A stretch of DNA of 64,000 nt, taken from assembly GCA_903889245.1 (NCBI GenBank), contig CAISWQ010000016.1:1-64000 (forward strand), given 5' to 3'. A model generated the notes under the pieces. That model searched no databases. It had not been told where the DNA came from and saw only the letters and a program-made list of their open reading frames with translations. Both the position numbers and the translations under genes were made by a program. This DNA comes from an uncultured Lentisphaerota bacterium. Lineage in GTDB: Bacteria > Verrucomicrobiota > Kiritimatiellia > CAIQIC01. Shown in pieces: positions 22,347 through 63,002 of the stretch (position 1 is the first letter of the stretch; every line of letters begins with the position of its first letter).

Positions 22347-22426
22347 TTTTCCAAGCCTTGGAAAATCAACCGGCCGTTTTTCCAAGGCTTGGAACTTTTT
22401 CGCGCGCGTTCCAAGCCTCCTGAAAA
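22347..22426. repeat. palindrome cluster E (3 copies, one degenerate)
   Basis: Copies at 22347-22365 (perfect), 22377-22394 and 22409-22426 (right arm broken) lie just upstream of the lemA operon. Confidence 0.85.
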
Positions 22427-27816: not shown

Positions 27817-28794
27817 TCAGCCTTCAACTTGACCCATCTCGAAGCCCGCCTGCGTGAGCATCTCGAGGTCGCGGTTGGTGCCCTGCCCTGCCGTGGTCAG
27901 GTAACCCTGCGTGAAGATGGAGTTCACCGCATAGAGCGCGAGCGGCTGCATCAGGCCGAGGATCGCCTCGCGGCCGCCGGCGGCGCGCAGCTCGGCGCGC
28001 GGATTGACCAGCCGGAACATCGCCAGCACCTTGAGCGCCTCGATGGCACCCAGCACCGGGCGGCCGGCCAGCGGCGTACCGGCGCGCGGGTTGAACAGGT
28101 TGACCGGAATCGCCTCGACCTCCAGGTCGCGCAACGCGAGCGCGAGGTCCACGCGATCCTCCAGCGTTTCGCCCATGCCGATGATGCCGCCGCAACAGGC
28201 CTCCAGCCCGGCGGCGCGCGCGCGCCGGACGGTGGCGACGCGCTCGTCCCACGTGTGCGTCGAGCAAATCTGCGGAAAAAACCGGCGCGAGGTTTCGAGG
28301 TTGTGGTTATAGCGCGTGACGCCGGCGGCCTTCAGCCGCCGCGCCTGCTCGTCGGTCAGCGAGCCCAGCGAGACGCACAGCTTGATCTTCATGTCCCCCG
28401 AAATCCGGCCGGCGGCCGCACACACGGCGGTGAGCACCTGCTCCGACGGACGCCGGCCGCTGGTCACCATGCAGTACTTGACCGCGCCGACCTCGGCCGC
28501 CTCCTGCGCGCCAACGATCAGCGCGTCGGCCGACTCCATCGCGTAGCGCTCAATCTCCGCCTGCGAACGGGCCGACTGGCTGCAAAACGAGCAGTCCTCG
28601 CTACAGTTGCCGCTCTGCGCGTTGCGAATGACGTGCAGGTTGACCTTGCGGCCAAAATGGTTCCGGCGGATGCGGAACGCCGCGTCGAGCAGCGCCAGCA
28701 GGTCGTCGTCCGGCGCGCCCAGCATCGCCAGCGCCTCGGCGCGCGAAACCTGCTGACCAGCGAGCACGTTGTCGGCAAGAGCATTCCAGTTCAT
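27817..28794 (-). CDS. bioB: biotin synthase
   Basis: A 325-residue radical SAM enzyme that inserts sulfur into dethiobiotin. The radical SAM cysteines are in NCSEDCSFCSQSA, and the second-cluster and substrate regions YNHNLETS, CCGGIIGMGET and PVNLFNPRAGTPL are intact. ATG 28794 is preferred because AAGG lies 8 bases upstream and the protein then has normal length; the frame is open much further upstream, but only through repeats and antisense sequence. No other biotin genes are nearby. Confidence 0.95.
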   Translation of the reverse strand: MNWNALADNVLAGQQVSRAEALAMLGAPDDDLLALLDAAFRIRRNHFGRKVNLHVIRNAQSGNCSEDCSFCSQSARSQAEIERYAMESADALIVGAQEAAEVGAVKYCMVTSGRRPSEQVLTAVCAAAGRISGDMKIKLCVSLGSLTDEQARRLKAAGVTRYNHNLETSRRFFPQICSTHTWDERVATVRRARAAGLEACCGGIIGMGETLEDRVDLALALRDLEVEAIPVNLFNPRAGTPLAGRPVLGAIEALKVLAMFRLVNPRAELRAAGGREAILGLMQPLALYAVNSIFTQGYLTTAGQGTNRDLEMLTQAGFEMGQVEG

Positions 28795-28984: not shown

Positions 28985-31900
28985 TCACTGTGTCGCCTCG
29001 CGGCCCCGCGGCTGCTGGTCGAGCACTTTGTAGTATTTCGCCTCGTGGTCGGAAAGTTTCTTCTTCTGGACCTGATCGCGAATTTTCTGCGTCTCGGCGG
29101 CGGGCAGCGTGCGCGGCGGCGGCCGGGGCGGCGGCTTTTCCAAGCCTTGGAGAGCGGCCGCGTTGGTTTTTCCAAGGCTGGGAACTTCCGGGGTCTCGGT
29201 TTTCCAAGCCTTGGAAAGCTCGAACGGCGCGACGACCAGCCGCACGAGCAGCGCCGCGAGTGCGAGCGCCGCCGCGAGGTAGGCGACCTCGCGCGCCGTG
29301 GGCCGCGGCACGGCGGATTCCTCGACGGGCAGCGCGCCAGCCTTGCGGCAGTTGTCGCACTGGAGGCAGTCGAGGTCGTCGTAGCGGCGGACACCGTAGC
29401 CGCAGTTGGCGGGTGTGATGTAGGGCGCGAGGCGGTGCAGCGGACGGAACGCGCCGAGCCAGCCGAGGAACGAGCCGGTCGGGCACAGGTTGCGGCACCA
29501 GAAGCGGCCGGAAAAGAGCGAGAGCGCGAGCACGGCGCAGGCCAGCAGCAGCACCGGGCGCTCGGCGAAGCCGCTGTAGAAGGTCACCAGTACATCGGCG
29601 TGCAGCACGCGCTCGTGCCAGCCGCCGAGCAGCGCGAGCAGCACCGCGCCGAGCAGCGCGACCTTGACCCAGCGCGACCAGCGCCAGAGGTGTTTGCGCG
29701 GTTGCAGCCGCCAGCGGCGCGGCCAGAACCAGCCGGCGATTTCCTGCGCCGCGCCGAACGGGCAGAGCCAGCCGCAATAATAATTCCCGATGAGCGCCAC
29801 GAGCACCGGCACGCCCACGGTCAGCAGGAACGGGATGGTCCACGACGGCGCGGGCAGCAGACCCTTTGTGAGCGCGGAAATTTCCTGCGTCGAGAACTGC
29901 GCGTTGAGCCACCAGCCCGCCCCGCCCACGAGCACCACGGGCCAGACCCAGCGCGCCACCCGCAGGCCGCGCGGCGGCAGCCAGCGCAGGCCGAGCGGCA
30001 GCAGCAGGATCGCCAGGAAGACCAGGTCACGCGCCGCAACCGGTCGCGCCTTGGCCGCGGCGCGCGCGCCCACTTCCTGGTGCAGCACTTTTTCGGCAAA
30101 GACCGGCCCGGCCTCGCGCAGCGTCTGCAACACGGCATAGCTCGTGTAGGTCGCGCCGCTGACGACATCCACCTTGGGCAGCGGGTCGGCGGTGGCGAGC
30201 GGCTGCTGCTTCAAACTCGCCAGCCACCGCTTGATGCGTTGCACATAGGAGGAGGTTTCGTAGTGCCGGACCAGCCGGAAGTCCACGAGCGCACCCCGGC
30301 CATCGAGCAGCAGCGCGAGCTTCAGCGGTCCGCCGTGGCCGCTGACCGGCGGCGTCAGCGCCTCGGAGTTGATCAGGTACAGCGGCTCGGCACCCTGCTG
30401 GAGTTTCAGGTAGGTGAGGGTCCGGCCGTCGTGCGCGGTGATCAATTCCTTGCTGACCTCCGCCTCCGGCCGCAGCTCGCGCGCGAGTTCGACCAGTTCC
30501 GGCGCCTCGACGGCGGTCAGCCGCGCGCGCCACTCCTGCAGCTGGCGCGCGTACCACGTCGCCGCGAACAGCCAGAGCAACGTCCCGGCGAGGACATAGC
30601 CGAGCCGCCGCGCCCAGCGGTCGGCGAAGTCGCCGCGCTCCGGGCGCGTCCACGTGGCGGGCCAGCGCGCGGCCGCGAGTACGTTCACCGCCACGAAGCC
30701 GAACAAAATCAGGATGGTCCCGCCCGCGCCGAGCACCGGCAGCAGCAACACGCCGGCGAGCAGACCGCCGAGCGCGCCGCCGAGATTATCGAACGACTCG
30801 ACCGCCGCGCCGGCCGCGAGGGCGCTCGCGCCCTCGCCCTGCAGGCGCGTGGTGGCCAGCGGGACATAGACGCCCTGGAAGCAACCCGCGCCGAGGAAGA
30901 GCGCCCAGAACGCGACCATGTCGAACTGCTCGCCGCGCGCGGCGATGGCGCACAGCAACACGAGATGCGCCAGCAGCGTCACCAGCAAAATCACGCGGGT
31001 ACGCTGGGGCCAGCGCTCCGCCAGTGCCGCACCCGTCTGCCCGCCCAAGGTCAGGCCGAGCATGAAGAGCGCGCCGACCAGCCCGACGTGCAGAAAGAGC
31101 GTACCGAAGCGGAGCTGATAGAGCGCCATCAGCAGCAGGCTCGCGGCCATGCCGGCGAAACCCGTGGTGAACAGCAGCATGAACTGGTCGAGCTTGGCGG
31201 GCAGCGTACCTTCCGTTGCCGCGCCGCCGCGCCCGCGCCGCGTGCAGCGGATGAAGGCGATGCGCAGCAGCGCGTAGAGCCCCAGTGCGCCGAGCAGCGC
31301 CGGCGCGAGCCACTGCCGCGCGAGGCCGGCGAGGAACGACGCGGGCGGTGACCAGCCCTGCTCCTTGCCGAGCAACAGCAGGTTGAAGAGCAACGCCAGC
31401 GGCCGCCCGTCGGTATTGACCAGCGGATGCAGATTGGACTGCAACAGCGCCGGCGAGTTGGTCTGCGGGCTGGCCGTGCGTTCGAGCGCGCGGCGATAGG
31501 CGCGCCACTGGAACTGGATGCGGTCGGCGGGCATCGCCGCGTAGAGGCCCTCGACCGGGAACAGCTCGCGCGTGCCCGCAATCGAGCGCCAGCGCCAGCC
31601 GAGTTCGAGCGCGTCCTCGGTCAGGATGCCCGCGGCGGAAGCATAGAGCCAGCTCTCGTCGCCCGGCTTGAGCGCGAGCCGCGGGAAGACGGAGTTGACC
31701 GTGGCGAACACCGAGGCGCCGAGCGCGGCGAGTTCGCCGCCGACGAAATTCTCGCCGCTCGCCAGCCGCACGGCGACGACGCTCTTCTCGTCGAGCCGCG
31801 TCTTGAGCAGTTGAAAAAACTCGCGCGTCAGGCAGCGGTTGGCGATCAGCGTCGTGGCGTCGGCGAGGTTCAGCAGCGCGGCGTCGAATTTCTCCGTGCC

Positions 31901-32965
31901 GTGCAGCAGATAGGAGCGGACATCCTCGCGCGGCACAACGAAGCGCGCCGGGTCGGGCAGCATGTGCTCCGGCAGCGCGGCGAGCGCGCGCGGCGGATAG
32001 GCGGGGTCGGGATGCAGCCAGACGACGCGCTCGATTTGCGGCACCAGCAGCAGGCGGCGCGCGAGCGCGAGGCTGTCGGGGCCGATCAGCAGGATGCGGC
32101 GCGCGGTGGTTTTCTGCGCGAGCAGCAGCGCGACGCGTTCCGCCGCCGGCTCGTCGTTGGGATAGGTTTCCACCACGCCCGCGCCCGCAACACAGATGAA
32201 CTGGCCCTTGCTCCAGCCATGCAGATAGCGCGTCTGCGGCGTGGCGAACGCGCCGCGGAACTGGTCCGCCGGCAGCAGGCGCGACCAGCGCGCGAGATCG
32301 TTCGCGCGCTGCCAGTCGCCGCCGAAGTCCAGCGCGGCCAGCACGGCGAGCACGCCGCCGGCCAGCGCGAGCGCGGAGCGCCAGCCCGCCGCGACGTGGA
32401 GCGCCGCGCAGCCGAGCAGCAGCGCGGCGCAGACCAGGCACGCGGCCTCCTCCGCCCAGCCCGCCGCGAGCCAGAGCGTGATGCCGACGCCGCCCGCGGC
32501 GCTGCCGAGCGCCTCCCAGATATAGACGCGCGCGACGGTCAGGCCCGGCGCGCGGCAGGCGAGCGTGAAGAGGAAGCCGGTGACGGCGCTGACCGGCGCG
32601 TTCGCGAGCGCGCCGAGGCTGAACATCGGCAGCCACGGAAACGTTTCGTAGGCGGCGACGCCCAGCAGGCCGCGCGCGTGCAGCAGCAGCCAATGCTGGA
32701 GCGCGAACGCGGGGAGATAGAGCAGCAGGCCGAGCGGCAGGCGCGCGGCGAGCGCGTCGAGCCACGCCGCGCGCACGCGGCCGAGCAACGCGCCGGCCGC
32801 CAGCCAGACCAGCCACGAACTGAAGAACAGGGCGAGCGCGAACTCGTGGCCCTCGAACGCCGTCAGGAACGCGCGGAAGAGCAGCGCCTGCGCCGCGAGC
32901 GCGAAGCCGCCGAGCGCGAACAGCGCCCCCCGCTGCGACCAGCCCTGGAGTTTTGGGGAAAACAC
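28985..32965 (-). CDS. multidomain membrane protein: spermidine-synthase-like, FMN-binding and NapH/NosR-like ferredoxin parts
   Basis: A protein of about 1,326 residues that joins three modules. The first 750 residues have many membrane helices around a soluble Rossmann-like region (RRILLIGPDSLALARRLL, PREDVRSYL), the layout of membrane-bound spermidine-synthase-like proteins. Next is an extracytoplasmic FMN-binding domain with SGATYTSYAVL near residue 938. The last part has membrane helices with CGWLCPFGAAQE (about 1063), CRNLCPTGSFLGW (about 1158) and CLQCDNC (about 1203), as in NapH/NosR ferredoxins. This suggests electron transfer across the membrane. GTG 32965 is preferred; the frame is open to TTG 33052, but only through palindromes. 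Three palindromes are translated near the C-terminus. Confidence 0.75.
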   Translation of the reverse strand: MFSPKLQGWSQRGALFALGGFALAAQALLFRAFLTAFEGHEFALALFFSSWLVWLAAGALLGRVRAAWLDALAARLPLGLLLYLPAFALQHWLLLHARGLLGVAAYETFPWLPMFSLGALANAPVSAVTGFLFTLACRAPGLTVARVYIWEALGSAAGGVGITLWLAAGWAEEAACLVCAALLLGCAALHVAAGWRSALALAGGVLAVLAALDFGGDWQRANDLARWSRLLPADQFRGAFATPQTRYLHGWSKGQFICVAGAGVVETYPNDEPAAERVALLLAQKTTARRILLIGPDSLALARRLLLVPQIERVVWLHPDPAYPPRALAALPEHMLPDPARFVVPREDVRSYLLHGTEKFDAALLNLADATTLIANRCLTREFFQLLKTRLDEKSVVAVRLASGENFVGGELAALGASVFATVNSVFPRLALKPGDESWLYASAAGILTEDALELGWRWRSIAGTRELFPVEGLYAAMPADRIQFQWRAYRRALERTASPQTNSPALLQSNLHPLVNTDGRPLALLFNLLLLGKEQGWSPPASFLAGLARQWLAPALLGALGLYALLRIAFIRCTRRGRGGAATEGTLPAKLDQFMLLFTTGFAGMAASLLLMALYQLRFGTLFLHVGLVGALFMLGLTLGGQTGAALAERWPQRTRVILLVTLLAHLVLLCAIAARGEQFDMVAFWALFLGAGCFQGVYVPLATTRLQGEGASALAAGAAVESFDNLGGALGGLLAGVLLLPVLGAGGTILILFGFVAVNVLAAARWPATWTRPERGDFADRWARRLGYVLAGTLLWLFAATWYARQLQEWRARLTAVEAPELVELARELRPEAEVSKELITAHDGRTLTYLKLQQGAEPLYLINSEALTPPVSGHGGPLKLALLLDGRGALVDFRLVRHYETSSYVQRIKRWLASLKQQPLATADPLPKVDVVSGATYTSYAVLQTLREAGPVFAEKVLHQEVGARAAAKARPVAARDLVFLAILLLPLGLRWLPPRGLRVARWVWPVVLVGGAGWWLNAQFSTQEISALTKGLLPAPSWTIPFLLTVGVPVLVALIGNYYCGWLCPFGAAQEIAGWFWPRRWRLQPRKHLWRWSRWVKVALLGAVLLALLGGWHERVLHADVLVTFYSGFAERPVLLLACAVLALSLFSGRFWCRNLCPTGSFLGWLGAFRPLHRLAPYITPANCGYGVRRYDDLDCLQCDNCRKAGALPVEESAVPRPTAREVAYLAAALALAALLVRLVVAPFELSKAWKTETPEVPSLGKTNAAALQGLEKPPPRPPPRTLPAAETQKIRDQVQKKKLSDHEAKYYKVLDQQPRGREATQ
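29136..29217. repeat. palindrome cluster F (3 copies) inside a coding region
   Basis: Copies at 29136-29152, 29167-29184 and 29200-29217 lie in frame within the 3' part of the multidomain membrane protein gene, giving SKAWKT, VPSLGKT and LQGLEKP. The coding frame continues for about 50 codons beyond them. Confidence 0.85.
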
Positions 32966-32982: not shown

Positions 32983-33064
32983 TTTCCAAGGATTGGAAAA
33001 TGTCGGCCCAGAAAGTTCCAAGCCTTGGAAAAGCTCGCGGAAATGTTTCCAAGCCTCGGAAAAA
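32983..33064. repeat. palindrome cluster G (3 copies)
   Basis: Copies at 32983-33000 (centre GGA), 33014-33032 (perfect arms) and 33045-33064 (one mismatch) fill the gap between the hcp terminator and the multidomain membrane protein gene. Confidence 0.85.
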
Positions 33065-33118: not shown

Positions 33119-34777
33119 TTAGTGGCCGGCCAGCGCCGCGGGCAGGTCCGCCGCGACGGTGGTGATGGGCTTGATGTTGAACTTCTCGACCAGCACCTTG
33201 AGCACGTTCGGCGAAACGAACGCCGGCAGGCTCGGACCGAGCCGGATGTTCTTGAGGCCGAGGTGGAGCAGCGTCAGCAGGATGCAGACGGCCTTCTGCT
33301 CATACCAGCTCAACACGAGCGACAGCGGCAGATCGTTGACGCCGCAACCAAAGGCCTGCGCGAGCGCGCCGGCGACCTTGATCGCGGTGTAGGCGTCGTT
33401 GCACTGGCCGCAGTCGAGCAGGCGCGGCAGGCCGCCGACGGTGCCGAAGTCGAGCTTGTTGAAGCGGTACTTGCCACAGGCGAGCGTGAGGATCACGCAG
33501 TCCTTCGGCACGGCCTGCGCGAACTCGGTGTAGTAGTTGCGGCCGCTCTTGGCACCATCGCAGCCGCCAATCAGGAAGAAACGCTTGACCGCCCCACCCT
33601 TGACCGCGGCGATCACCTGATCGGCGACGCCGAGAATCGCGTTGTGGCCGAAGCCGACGAGAATCTCCTGGTCCGCGCCGTCGTGGTCGAAACCGGGCGC
33701 GGCGAGCGCGGCCTCAATTACCGGCTTGAAGTTGCGGTCGGTGACGTGCGCGACACCGGGCCACGCGACGAGGCCGCTGGTGAAGATGCGGGCCTTGTAC
33801 TGGTCCTTCGGCTTCTGGATGCAGTTGGTCGTCATCAGGATCGCGCCGGGGAACGCCTCGAACTCCTTGCGCTGATCCTGCCACGCGCCGCCGTAGTTGC
33901 CGACGAGGTGCTTGTACTGCTTGAGGCCCGGATAGCCGTGCGCGGGCAGCATCTCGCTGTGCGTAAAGATGTTGATGCCCGTGCCCTCGGTCTGCTTGAG
34001 CAGCTCCTCGAGATCGGCGAGGTCGTGGCCGGAAATCAGGATCGCCTTACCCTTGACCGGCGTGGTGCGGACCTTGGTCGGGACGGGATTGCCATAGGCG
34101 CCGGTGTTCGCGGCGTCGAGCAGTTCCATCACCTTCAGGTTCACCTCGCCGCATTTGAGATTCCACGCGAGCAGGTCGCCGAGCTGCGGATTCGGCTTGG
34201 TCAGGAAGTCGAGCGCATCGTGGAAGAAGGCGTAGACGGCATCATCCTCCTTGCCGAGAATCAGCGCGTGGTCGGCGTAGGCCGCGGTGCCCTTGAGGCC
34301 GAAGAGCAGCAGGTCCATCAGGCCGGCGATGTCGGCGCCGTACTGCGCATGACGTTTTTCGGGGCTGAAATCCTCGCCCTGATCCACGAGCGCCGCAAGA
34401 TCGGCGGCGGGACGCCACACGGCGGGACCCGTGAGTTGTTCCGGGGCGCGACCGGCCTTCTGGCAGGCGGCCTCGTACTGGCGGCGCAGTTGCTCGCGCA
34501 CGACGACGGCGTGCCGCAGCATCTGCTCCAGCCGCACCGGGTCAAAGTTGACGTTCGTCACGGTCGTAAACAACGCCTCGACGACGAAGACATCGGCGGT
34601 GTAATTCTTGACGCCCAACTGCCGCGCGCGGTGCGCGTACTGGCTGAGGCCCTGCGCCGCGTGGATCAACAGATCCTGCAACGCCGCGGTTTCCGGATCC
34701 TTGCCGCACACGCCGAACTGGTCGCAGCCCGTACCCTGGGCTGCCTGCTCGCACTGATAACAGAACATGCTGCTCAT
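33119..34777 (-). CDS. hcp: hybrid cluster protein (hydroxylamine reductase), class I
   Basis: A 552-residue iron-sulfur enzyme. The N-terminal cysteines Cys6, Cys9, Cys18 and Cys24 have the Cys-x2-Cys-x8-Cys-x5-Cys spacing of class I Hcp found in anaerobes; hybrid-cluster ligands follow (TLACGKYRFN, DCGQCNDAYT, LSWYEQKAV). Hcp reduces hydroxylamine in vitro and is now best known as an NO reductase and nitrosylase in nitrosative stress. It is divergent from a Crp/Fnr gene, with an Fnr-type palindrome in between, and ends at a strong terminator. Confidence 0.95.
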   Translation of the reverse strand: MSSMFCYQCEQAAQGTGCDQFGVCGKDPETAALQDLLIHAAQGLSQYAHRARQLGVKNYTADVFVVEALFTTVTNVNFDPVRLEQMLRHAVVVREQLRRQYEAACQKAGRAPEQLTGPAVWRPAADLAALVDQGEDFSPEKRHAQYGADIAGLMDLLLFGLKGTAAYADHALILGKEDDAVYAFFHDALDFLTKPNPQLGDLLAWNLKCGEVNLKVMELLDAANTGAYGNPVPTKVRTTPVKGKAILISGHDLADLEELLKQTEGTGINIFTHSEMLPAHGYPGLKQYKHLVGNYGGAWQDQRKEFEAFPGAILMTTNCIQKPKDQYKARIFTSGLVAWPGVAHVTDRNFKPVIEAALAAPGFDHDGADQEILVGFGHNAILGVADQVIAAVKGGAVKRFFLIGGCDGAKSGRNYYTEFAQAVPKDCVILTLACGKYRFNKLDFGTVGGLPRLLDCGQCNDAYTAIKVAGALAQAFGCGVNDLPLSLVLSWYEQKAVCILLTLLHLGLKNIRLGPSLPAFVSPNVLKVLVEKFNIKPITTVAADLPAALAGH

Positions 34778-34873
34778 CGCGTTTCCCTATCCTTTTGGTT
34801 GTGGTGTTGTGTTGCTACGGCCGCTCCCACGAGCGGCGCGCGCTGACAATGCCGCAAGTGCGGCTGGGAAAAC

Positions 34874-34887
34874 TTGACTTGCCTCAA
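34874..34887. promoter_or_regulatory. Fnr/Dnr-type operator
   Basis: TTGACTTGCCTCAA has both half-sites TTGA and TCAA intact at the Fnr spacing (consensus TTGAT-N4-ATCAA), flanked by an extra C/G pair. It lies 46 bases before the Crp/Fnr gene and about 97 bases before hcp, in their shared control region, next to a small hairpin (CCGCAAGTGCGG). Confidence 0.65.
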
Positions 34888-34932
34888 GAAAAGGTGAATT
34901 AGTCCGCCACACCCAGCAGCACGGGAGTCATC

Positions 34933-35610
34933 ATGGATAGAACAGCCTTGCTCGCCCAGACGACGTTCTTCGAGGGGCTCGCGACGCCGAGCCGCGAGGC
35001 GCTCGCCGCCATCTGCCGCCCGCGCGACCTGCGCAAACGCGAGCTGCTGTTCCGCGAGGGCGACCGCGGCGAGGGCGTCTTCCTCGTCGCCAGCGGTCAC
35101 ATCCAACTCTACAAGACCACGCCCGCCGGCGAGGAGATCGTCATTAAGATCATCAAGCCCGGTGAGTCGTTTGCCGAGGCCGTGCTGTTCGAAGCCGACC
35201 GCTACCCTGTCAGCGCTGTCGCGCTCACCGCCTGCCGCCTCTACATTGTGCTCAAGCAGGATATCGAGAACCTGCTTGGCCGCTCCGACTTCCGACGCGA
35301 CTTCATCACGATGCTCATGCGCAAGCAGCGCTACCTCACCGAGCGCATCCGCCAGTTGAGTACGCAGGATGTCGCTGAACGCCTGCTCGGTTTTTTGCGC
35401 GAGCAGTACGGCCCGCGCGACCAAATCCAGACCGTACTCTCGAAGAAGGACATCGCCGCCGCCATCGGCGTCACGCCGGAGACGCTCTCGCGCCTGATCC
35501 CACGCCTGAAAAAGGAAATGAAAATCGTGTGGACCGGTCGCGCCCTCCGCTTCCCCGCCGGCTTCTGGCCGGCCCGCGCCGGAAAAGTTCCAAGCGTTGG
35601 AGAAAACTAG
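34933..35610 (+). CDS. Crp/Fnr-family transcription regulator
   Basis: A 225-residue regulator with an N-terminal cyclic-nucleotide-binding-like domain (LLFREGDRGEGVFLVASGHIQLYK) and a C-terminal winged helix with recognition helix VTPETLSRLIPRLKK. It lacks the N-terminal cysteine cluster of Fnr, so it is more likely a Dnr/NnrR-like NO or redox sensor, in keeping with its place opposite hcp. Ribosome-binding site GGGAG precedes the ATG. The last residues (GKVPSVGEN) are encoded by a palindromic repeat that also carries the gene into its stop codon, so the tail may be a recent addition. Confidence 0.9.
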   Translation: MDRTALLAQTTFFEGLATPSREALAAICRPRDLRKRELLFREGDRGEGVFLVASGHIQLYKTTPAGEEIVIKIIKPGESFAEAVLFEADRYPVSAVALTACRLYIVLKQDIENLLGRSDFRRDFITMLMRKQRYLTERIRQLSTQDVAERLLGFLREQYGPRDQIQTVLSKKDIAAAIGVTPETLSRLIPRLKKEMKIVWTGRALRFPAGFWPARAGKVPSVGEN

Positions 35611-39372: not shown

Positions 39373-39483
39373 TTTTCCAAGCCTTGGAAAAACCGCGGAA
39401 CCATTTTCCAACCCCTGGAAAAAGCGCCGAGCCTTGTTCCCAGCCTTGGAAAAAAGGCCGTCCATTTTTCCAAGCCTTGGAAA
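39373..39483. repeat. palindrome cluster I (4 copies)
   Basis: Copies at 39373-39392, 39404-39423, 39436-39456 and 39465-39483, at a regular 30-base spacing, between ruvB and the tRNA-Thr element. The first and last are perfect. Confidence 0.9.
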
Positions 39484-62891: not shown

Positions 62892-63002
62892 TTTCAGAGA
62901 TTGGAAATCCTCCACCCCGGTTTTCCCAAGCCTTGGAAACTTTCATCGTCAATTTTTCCAAGGCTTGGAAAATACACGGGATTTTTTCCCAAGCCTTGGA
63001 AA
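62892..63002. repeat. palindrome cluster N (3 copies plus one degenerate)
   Basis: Degenerate copy at 62892-62908, then 62921-62939, 62953-62972 and 62982-63002, upstream of the cytochrome c peroxidase gene. This is the one cluster that clearly lies in a divergent, promoter-bearing gap. Confidence 0.85.

Follow-up and report, generated by a model that had tools for sequence, protein, structure and literature searches.

The window analysed here, 64,000 nucleotides of contig CAISWQ010000016.1 from an uncultured Lentisphaerota bacterium, carries on its minus strand a gene fusion (28985..32965; ~1,326 amino acids) that probably encodes a membrane subunit belonging to an exported form of the AmmeMemoRadiSam (AMR) system, in which electrons would be passed to an outer flavin for a redox step by a Memo-AMMECR1 protein. 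The gene is one unbroken open reading frame (ORF) with its stop side at 28985 and its upstream side at 32965 (GTG) or 33052 (TTG). Alignment placed the start codon of same-genus homologues at the position that matches the window GTG and, because these homologues start at the same residue, the 1,326-residue form from GTG 32965 is the likely protein. The product comprises a membrane body of the major facilitator superfamily (MFS) type with an inserted spermidine-synthase-like Rossmann domain, followed by a flavin mononucleotide (FMN) domain and a NapH-like iron-sulphur segment.

Homologue searches covered 56 relatives, named genome contigs and 241 genomes of the window's own phylum. Full-length fusions in a single ORF were recovered in 33 loci, the window copy counted, and AMR genes were present within the fetched flank of 23 of these. 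The recurrent neighbors were a radical S-adenosylmethionine (SAM) enzyme of family TIGR04337 (384 bits) and a Memo-AMMECR1 fusion (TIGR04336 plus TIGR04335), usually arranged on one strand in the order radical SAM, Memo-AMMECR1, fusion, and with a -4 bp stop/start overlap with Memo-AMMECR1 in eight loci (L040, L091, L092, L093, L094, L098, L104 and L206). The linkage was seen also in Nitrospiraceae, Kiritimatiellae, Hydrogenedentota, Planctomycetota and gammaproteobacteria, and likewise among relatives of the membrane module that lack the FMN and NapH-like parts. Across the 241 genomes, TIGR04337 was detected in all 39 that possess the membrane module compared to 75 of the 202 that do not (Fisher 3e-15, kinship not corrected). 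In the genome from which the window derives, the radical SAM gene lies with the Memo-AMMECR1 gene on contig C18, away from the fusion, and a second TIGR04337 gene is separate from that pair. The AMR context was therefore invisible to the original prediction, which was made from the window. Overall, membership of the fusion in the AMR system is strongly supported.

All-against-all clustering of the flanks revealed no further recurrent partner in the AMR loci except antisense shadows and one mixed, unannotated cluster of large ORFs. In same-genus genomes, Memo-AMMECR1 and the fusion are separated by unannotated genes at L037:10469-12577 (702 amino acids) and L038:13633-14824 (245 and 141 amino acids), and an NCBIfam search with the two L038 proteins gave no match. 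At L058:7775-8890 and L065:10501-11583, outgroup relatives of the module directly adjoin a different radical SAM gene with only remote kinship to TIGR04337.

The Memo-AMMECR1 proteins possess hydrophobic N-terminal signals, many with a lipobox (LLTAC in L040, LTSC in L042, LGAC in L044), and the protein encoded on contig C18 of the window's own genome has the lipobox LLCSC. Export signals were called with a hydropathy cut-off. On this basis, 29 of the 31 linked Memo-AMMECR1 sequences were signal-positive, the two negatives being fragments cut by a contig end or a frameshift, whereas 20 of the 28 stand-alone Memo sequences without the module were signal-negative. Among the eight signal-positive stand-alone sequences are members of a third, divergent group of Memo proteins and a lipoprotein Memo whose gene neighbors a separate gene for AMMECR1. 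This third group (motif RR.HG.GRW; L226, L227, L231, L234, L235, L236, L238 and L239), some members of which have signal peptides, showed no AMMECR1 or radical SAM neighbor in the fetched flanks.

The radical SAM enzyme is without an export signal in all 25 FMN-bearing loci. In the outer lineage that lacks FMN, by contrast, the enzyme bears twin-arginine translocation (Tat) motifs in L053, L212, L213, L214 and, more weakly, L057, or a membrane anchor in L055, L056, L062, L071 and L246; the contrast is one between clades and hence represents few evolutionary events. These Tat signals and anchors would put the AMR radical SAM enzyme outside the cytoplasm. The genes with apparent Tat signals are located at L053:6402-7523, L212:4827-5969, L213:8910-11081 and L214:4238-5545 (SRRRFLST, SRREFLG, DRRSFLE and SRRTALR).

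The domain composition of the fusion was established by several searches. Pfam identified Fer4_5 (PF12801; 2.9e-15) and FMN_bind (PF04205; 4.3e-08), and sub-threshold NCBIfam matches fell in the expected order: PRK03612 at residues 310-432, RnfG at 903-985 and NosR/NapH at 1010-1205. A 58-row profile of relatives compared with solved structures matched spermidine synthases (1.5e-30) and RnfG (7e-14), and an AlphaFold2 model of 1,200 residues had a pLDDT of 90 and a pTM of 0.87. The proposal that spermidine-synthase-like, FMN and iron-sulphur modules are combined in a single chain was thereby borne out, and the order originally read from the sequence, Rossmann, NosR/RnfG-like FMN, NapH-like iron-sulfur, agrees with that of the Pfam and NCBIfam matches. 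The chain ends with a conserved cytoplasmic motif, LSDHEAKYY (29030..29056, on the minus strand as are all parts of the fusion below), in which L, S, A and Y are invariant in the alignment.

The original prediction had entertained a base error joining two genes, in which case relatives would always encode two proteins. Instead, splits were exceptional among the relatives, and full-length ORFs in 33 loci, distant phyla included, rule out a fusion created by sequencing error. The holders comprise the window's phylum and metagenome-assembled genomes labelled Nitrospiraceae, Lentisphaerae, Kiritimatiellae, Hydrogenedentota, Phycisphaerae/Sedimentisphaerales, Planctomycetota and gammaproteobacteria, the last being Sedimenticola and the endosymbiont of Escarpia. 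A split gene was found once in the window's family (G004/L050), the sister genome (G005/L039) being intact, and again in two near-identical deltaproteobacterial/myxococcal loci (L102 and L103). The two halves occur as separate genes close together in three Nitrospirae loci (L107, L108 and L111), as would be expected for the parts of a fusion. In a tree of the membrane module, the fusions and later derivatives without NapH or FMN formed one clade with SH-aLRT support of 99, outside which the module has no fused FMN or NapH-like part. The fusion is ancient, a single old clade with domain losses afterwards. Two members of this clade that lack both FMN and NapH-like parts (L200:7608-10322 and L201:384-3089) possess an extra C-terminal tail of ~170 amino acids, for which a Pfam search gave no match.

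The FMN_bind domain (30074..30478) has the RnfG/NqrC fold, aligning with 7zc6_G at Z 11.6 over 132 residues and 3.2 Å. It contains a flavinylation motif, SGAT (30149..30160), whose Thr-968 is present in all 49 aligned sequences, and is predicted to be flavinylated at this residue. The [S/T]GAT-bearing domain is predicted to be extracytosolic and lies N-terminal to the NapH-like membrane segment (29324..30046; PF12801 at 2.9e-15; TIGR02163 at 3.8e-09, below cut-off). Two CX3CP motifs in that segment, C1093/C1097 (29762..29776) and C1186/C1190 (29483..29497), are each conserved in 49 of 49 sequences. A further C-x11-CxxCxxC motif of conserved cysteines follows on the cytoplasmic side (29348..29404): Cys-1229, Cys-1232 and Cys-1235 are present in all 43 sequences that reach them and Cys-1217 in 43 of 44. 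The NosR model NF046105 scored 30.6 bits against a cut-off of 1000, the NapH-like part alone matching. Comparison of the NapH-like part with solved structures gave no clear match, the FMN domain alone being matched, which is not evidence of a new fold. A gene for the flavin transferase ApbE was detected in 18 of 18 genomes with an FMN-bearing fusion compared to 25 of 38 others (p=0.005); the window's own genome has three, all on contigs other than that of the fusion.

The membrane part of the AlphaFold2 model matched MFS transporters such as SLC37A4 (Z 28.6, the top value, over 334 residues at 3.5 Å) and NarK (Z 27.1), although the model for fused MFS/spermidine synthases, NF037959, scored only 13.7 bits against a cut-off of 40. 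By averaged hydropathy and charge the N-terminus is inside, seven helices lead to an outer Rossmann domain and eight more to an outer FMN domain, and the NapH-like helices come last with their cysteine motifs on the inner side; loop charges alternate as this topology demands. The count of eight helices in the second half presumes two helices within residues 757-796, where the script gave one merged peak and the charges of the flanking loops favor two. Both ends of MFS transporters are cytoplasmic. The body is predicted to be a 14-helix MFS protein (6+2+6) composed of the N-terminal six-helix bundle plus an extra helix 7 (32318..32929) and a second extra helix plus the C-terminal bundle (30665..31396), each supported by hydropathy and charge, AlphaFold2 and the MFS fold match. 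Because the two helices in excess of the usual MFS number of 12 lie on either side of the Rossmann domain, this domain would be outside, between the two, and the Rossmann and FMN domains are predicted to share the outer face with the iron-sulphur clusters inside. The arrangement envisaged originally, a membrane Rossmann protein with an outer-face flavin and a cytoplasmic iron-sulphur side, is accordingly one that domain and profile searches, hydropathy and charge, AlphaFold2 and conserved residues all favor.

The Rossmann domain (31478..32260) has the spermidine-synthase fold by profile (1.5e-30, to 1uir) and by Foldseek (3.4e-08). Its residues were read off an alignment to Thermus SpeE that included 44 sequences of the fusion clade; the assignment of catalytic residues follows what is generally known of the spermidine-synthase family. 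In place of the catalytic Asp for aminopropyl transfer (DxxD) the window protein has Asn-395; of the 44 sequences, two keep Asp and 42 have another residue. The acid that binds the ribose of SAM is His-347 in the window protein and is retained in 12 of the 44 sequences, and the GGG loop is altered. By these criteria of sequence the domain is predicted not to be a working aminopropyltransferase, and an active spermidine synthase was ruled out by the loss of the catalytic and SAM-ribose residues. The Arg of an NR(F/Y)xTxEFF motif and two further Asp positions are nevertheless conserved, and the site therefore probably still serves some use. In the sister (outer) lineage without FMN the SAM-ribose acid is kept in 14 of 14 sequences.

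The role proposed for the fusion combines these results. The linkage, co-occurrence, conserved ligands and export signals were computed and the topology is predicted; what we infer is which way the electrons run, what the substrate is and which molecule accepts the electrons. Electrons would enter at the cytoplasmic iron-sulphur clusters from ferredoxin or the quinol pool and cross the membrane to covalent FMN on the outer face, where the Memo-AMMECR1 lipoprotein would consume them in a redox step. The MFS/Rossmann body would bind or move the compound, whether substrate or product, by which the radical SAM step in the cytosol is connected to the outer step. Several observations weigh against this proposal. 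The fusion is unlinked to AMR genes in the window's genome and in nine other loci. The 75 sampled genomes that have TIGR04337 but lack the membrane module show that AMR chemistry does not require the module. Memo-AMMECR1 is exported also in some genomes in which the module is unlinked and in some, from the same order, that have no detectable module; export is therefore a trait of the Memo-AMMECR1 lineage and not proof of contact. The topology and signal-peptide calls are predictions from hydropathy, charge and fold. In a variant that we consider improbable, AMR chemistry is relocated outside the cell, and the MFS body and outer Rossmann domain of the membrane subunit serve to handle a ligand that resembles SAM or a nucleoside. 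The radical SAM enzyme of the sister lineage would then work on exported SAM outside the cytoplasm, as the Tat signals and anchors and the universally kept SAM-ribose acid in that lineage might suggest.

Four rival explanations were ranked in falling order of probability. The fusion might be a general electron donor, a flavinylated NapH-like conduit of the NosR/PceC type that serves a different extracytoplasmic oxidoreductase; the MFS/Rossmann part would then be a scaffold, and the AMR linkage would reflect no more than assembly or maturation. The modular use of NapH-like flavinylated proteins with many oxidoreductases (PMC8238504) and the fusion loci that have no AMR gene nearby accord with this idea. 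It is unlikely, however, as the radical SAM and Memo-AMMECR1 proteins are the only widely recurrent recognised families beside the gene, no other oxidoreductase was found as a conserved neighbor, and every genome with the module has TIGR04337. More doubtful still is inward flow, in which an oxidation outside, for example by Memo-AMMECR1, reduces the flavin and the electrons pass to the radical SAM enzyme of the AMR system in the cytosol or to the ferredoxin of that enzyme. Such an inside partner does exist alongside the conduit, given the absence of export signals from the enzyme in FMN-bearing loci. However, radical SAM clusters require electrons of very low potential, which an FMN/NapH chain without an ion pump is not expected to yield. 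Characterised NapH-like systems mostly serve reductases, that is, they run outward (PMC8238504).

The original prediction taken literally, that the conduit supports a modification made by the Rossmann module as an active polyamine aminopropyltransferase or methyltransferase, has the spermidine-synthase fold in its favor. As put, this claim was not supported and is very unlikely to be correct: the transfer Asp and, mostly, the SAM-ribose acid have been lost, the GGG loop is altered, and the domain is predicted to be outside, where SAM is not expected. The chemistry is better assigned to the co-encoded AMR proteins. The least credible rival, to which we attach hardly any weight, is an hcp-fusion-bioB operon that feeds electrons to the hybrid cluster protein Hcp in a nitric oxide or hydroxylamine response. 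The hcp gene (33119..34777, minus strand) is directly upstream on the strand of the fusion, and a CRP/FNR-type regulator diverges from it (33119-35610 in all). Nevertheless, Hcp is cytosolic whereas the FMN domain is predicted outside, and hcp adjoins the fusion in none of the other fetched loci; an hcp operon was ruled out as functional context since the arrangement occurs in the window only, and hcp was not counted as part of the system.

The downstream neighbor of the fusion is bioB (27817..28794, minus strand), which recurs at this position in the same-family loci L036, L037, L038 and L050 but is confined to the window's own family and is noted as synteny only. The window also contains a palindrome-like repeat, TTTCCAAGCCTTGGAAA, with 69 matches on both strands at ≤3 mismatches compared to 0.1 expected. 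Copies occur in clusters of two to four with a period of 31-32 bp, at sites that include 22348-22395, 29137-29217, 32983-33062, 39374-39483 and 62923-63002. Three copies are read in frame as part of the fusion's C-terminal linker, and another three lie between hcp and the fusion; similar repeats are read through in L038.

MEMO1 and AMMECR1 are conserved as far as humans and, to our knowledge, the biochemical reaction of the AMR triad is not established. A membrane partner with a flavin/iron-sulphur chain together with a lipoprotein Memo-AMMECR1 suggests that the outer step is likely to be redox and fed from inside, in several phyla. It offers a concrete handle on the AMR system through flavinylation, the redox partner, co-purification and the exported substrate, and adds a new client to the flavinylated extracytosolic electron-transfer systems. 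Precedents exist for the AMR triad, for flavinylated NapH-like systems and for membrane spermidine-synthase-like proteins, but we know of no description of their union, although Burroughs et al. (2019), a paper on the PCAD-Memo superfamily that PMC7159879 cites, might mention the neighborhood.

The proteins that adjoin the fusion are the three components of the AMR system (TIGR04335, TIGR04336 and TIGR04337), namely AMMECR1, Memo and a radical SAM enzyme resembling pyruvate formate-lyase activase. In the classical system Memo stands alone, mostly without an export signal and with no membrane partner, whereas here Memo and AMMECR1 are fused, exported and provided with a dedicated membrane transporter/electron-transfer subunit. 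Like flavinylated NapH-like systems such as PceC and NosR (PMC8238504), the fusion has an FMN domain on the outer face ahead of a membrane segment with a pair of CX3CP motifs and additional cysteines on the cytoplasmic side, but these parts are joined to the end of an MFS/spermidine-synthase-like protein, and the genes linked to the fusion are those of the AMR system, not of a respiratory reductase. The main texts of two papers on flavinylation, PMC8238504 among them, contain no mention of spermidine synthase or of MFS. Membrane helices and a domain of spermidine-synthase fold are common to the fusion, PRK03612 and MFS_SpdSyn NF037959. In contrast to these families, it falls far below both curated cut-offs, has lost the catalytic and SAM residues, and has gained FMN and NapH-like parts. 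Finally, RnfG and NqrC have in common with the FMN domain their fold and the motif for Thr-linked FMN; unlike them, the fusion was not seen to adjoin Rnf or Nqr partner subunits, and its electrons would come from the fused NapH-like part.

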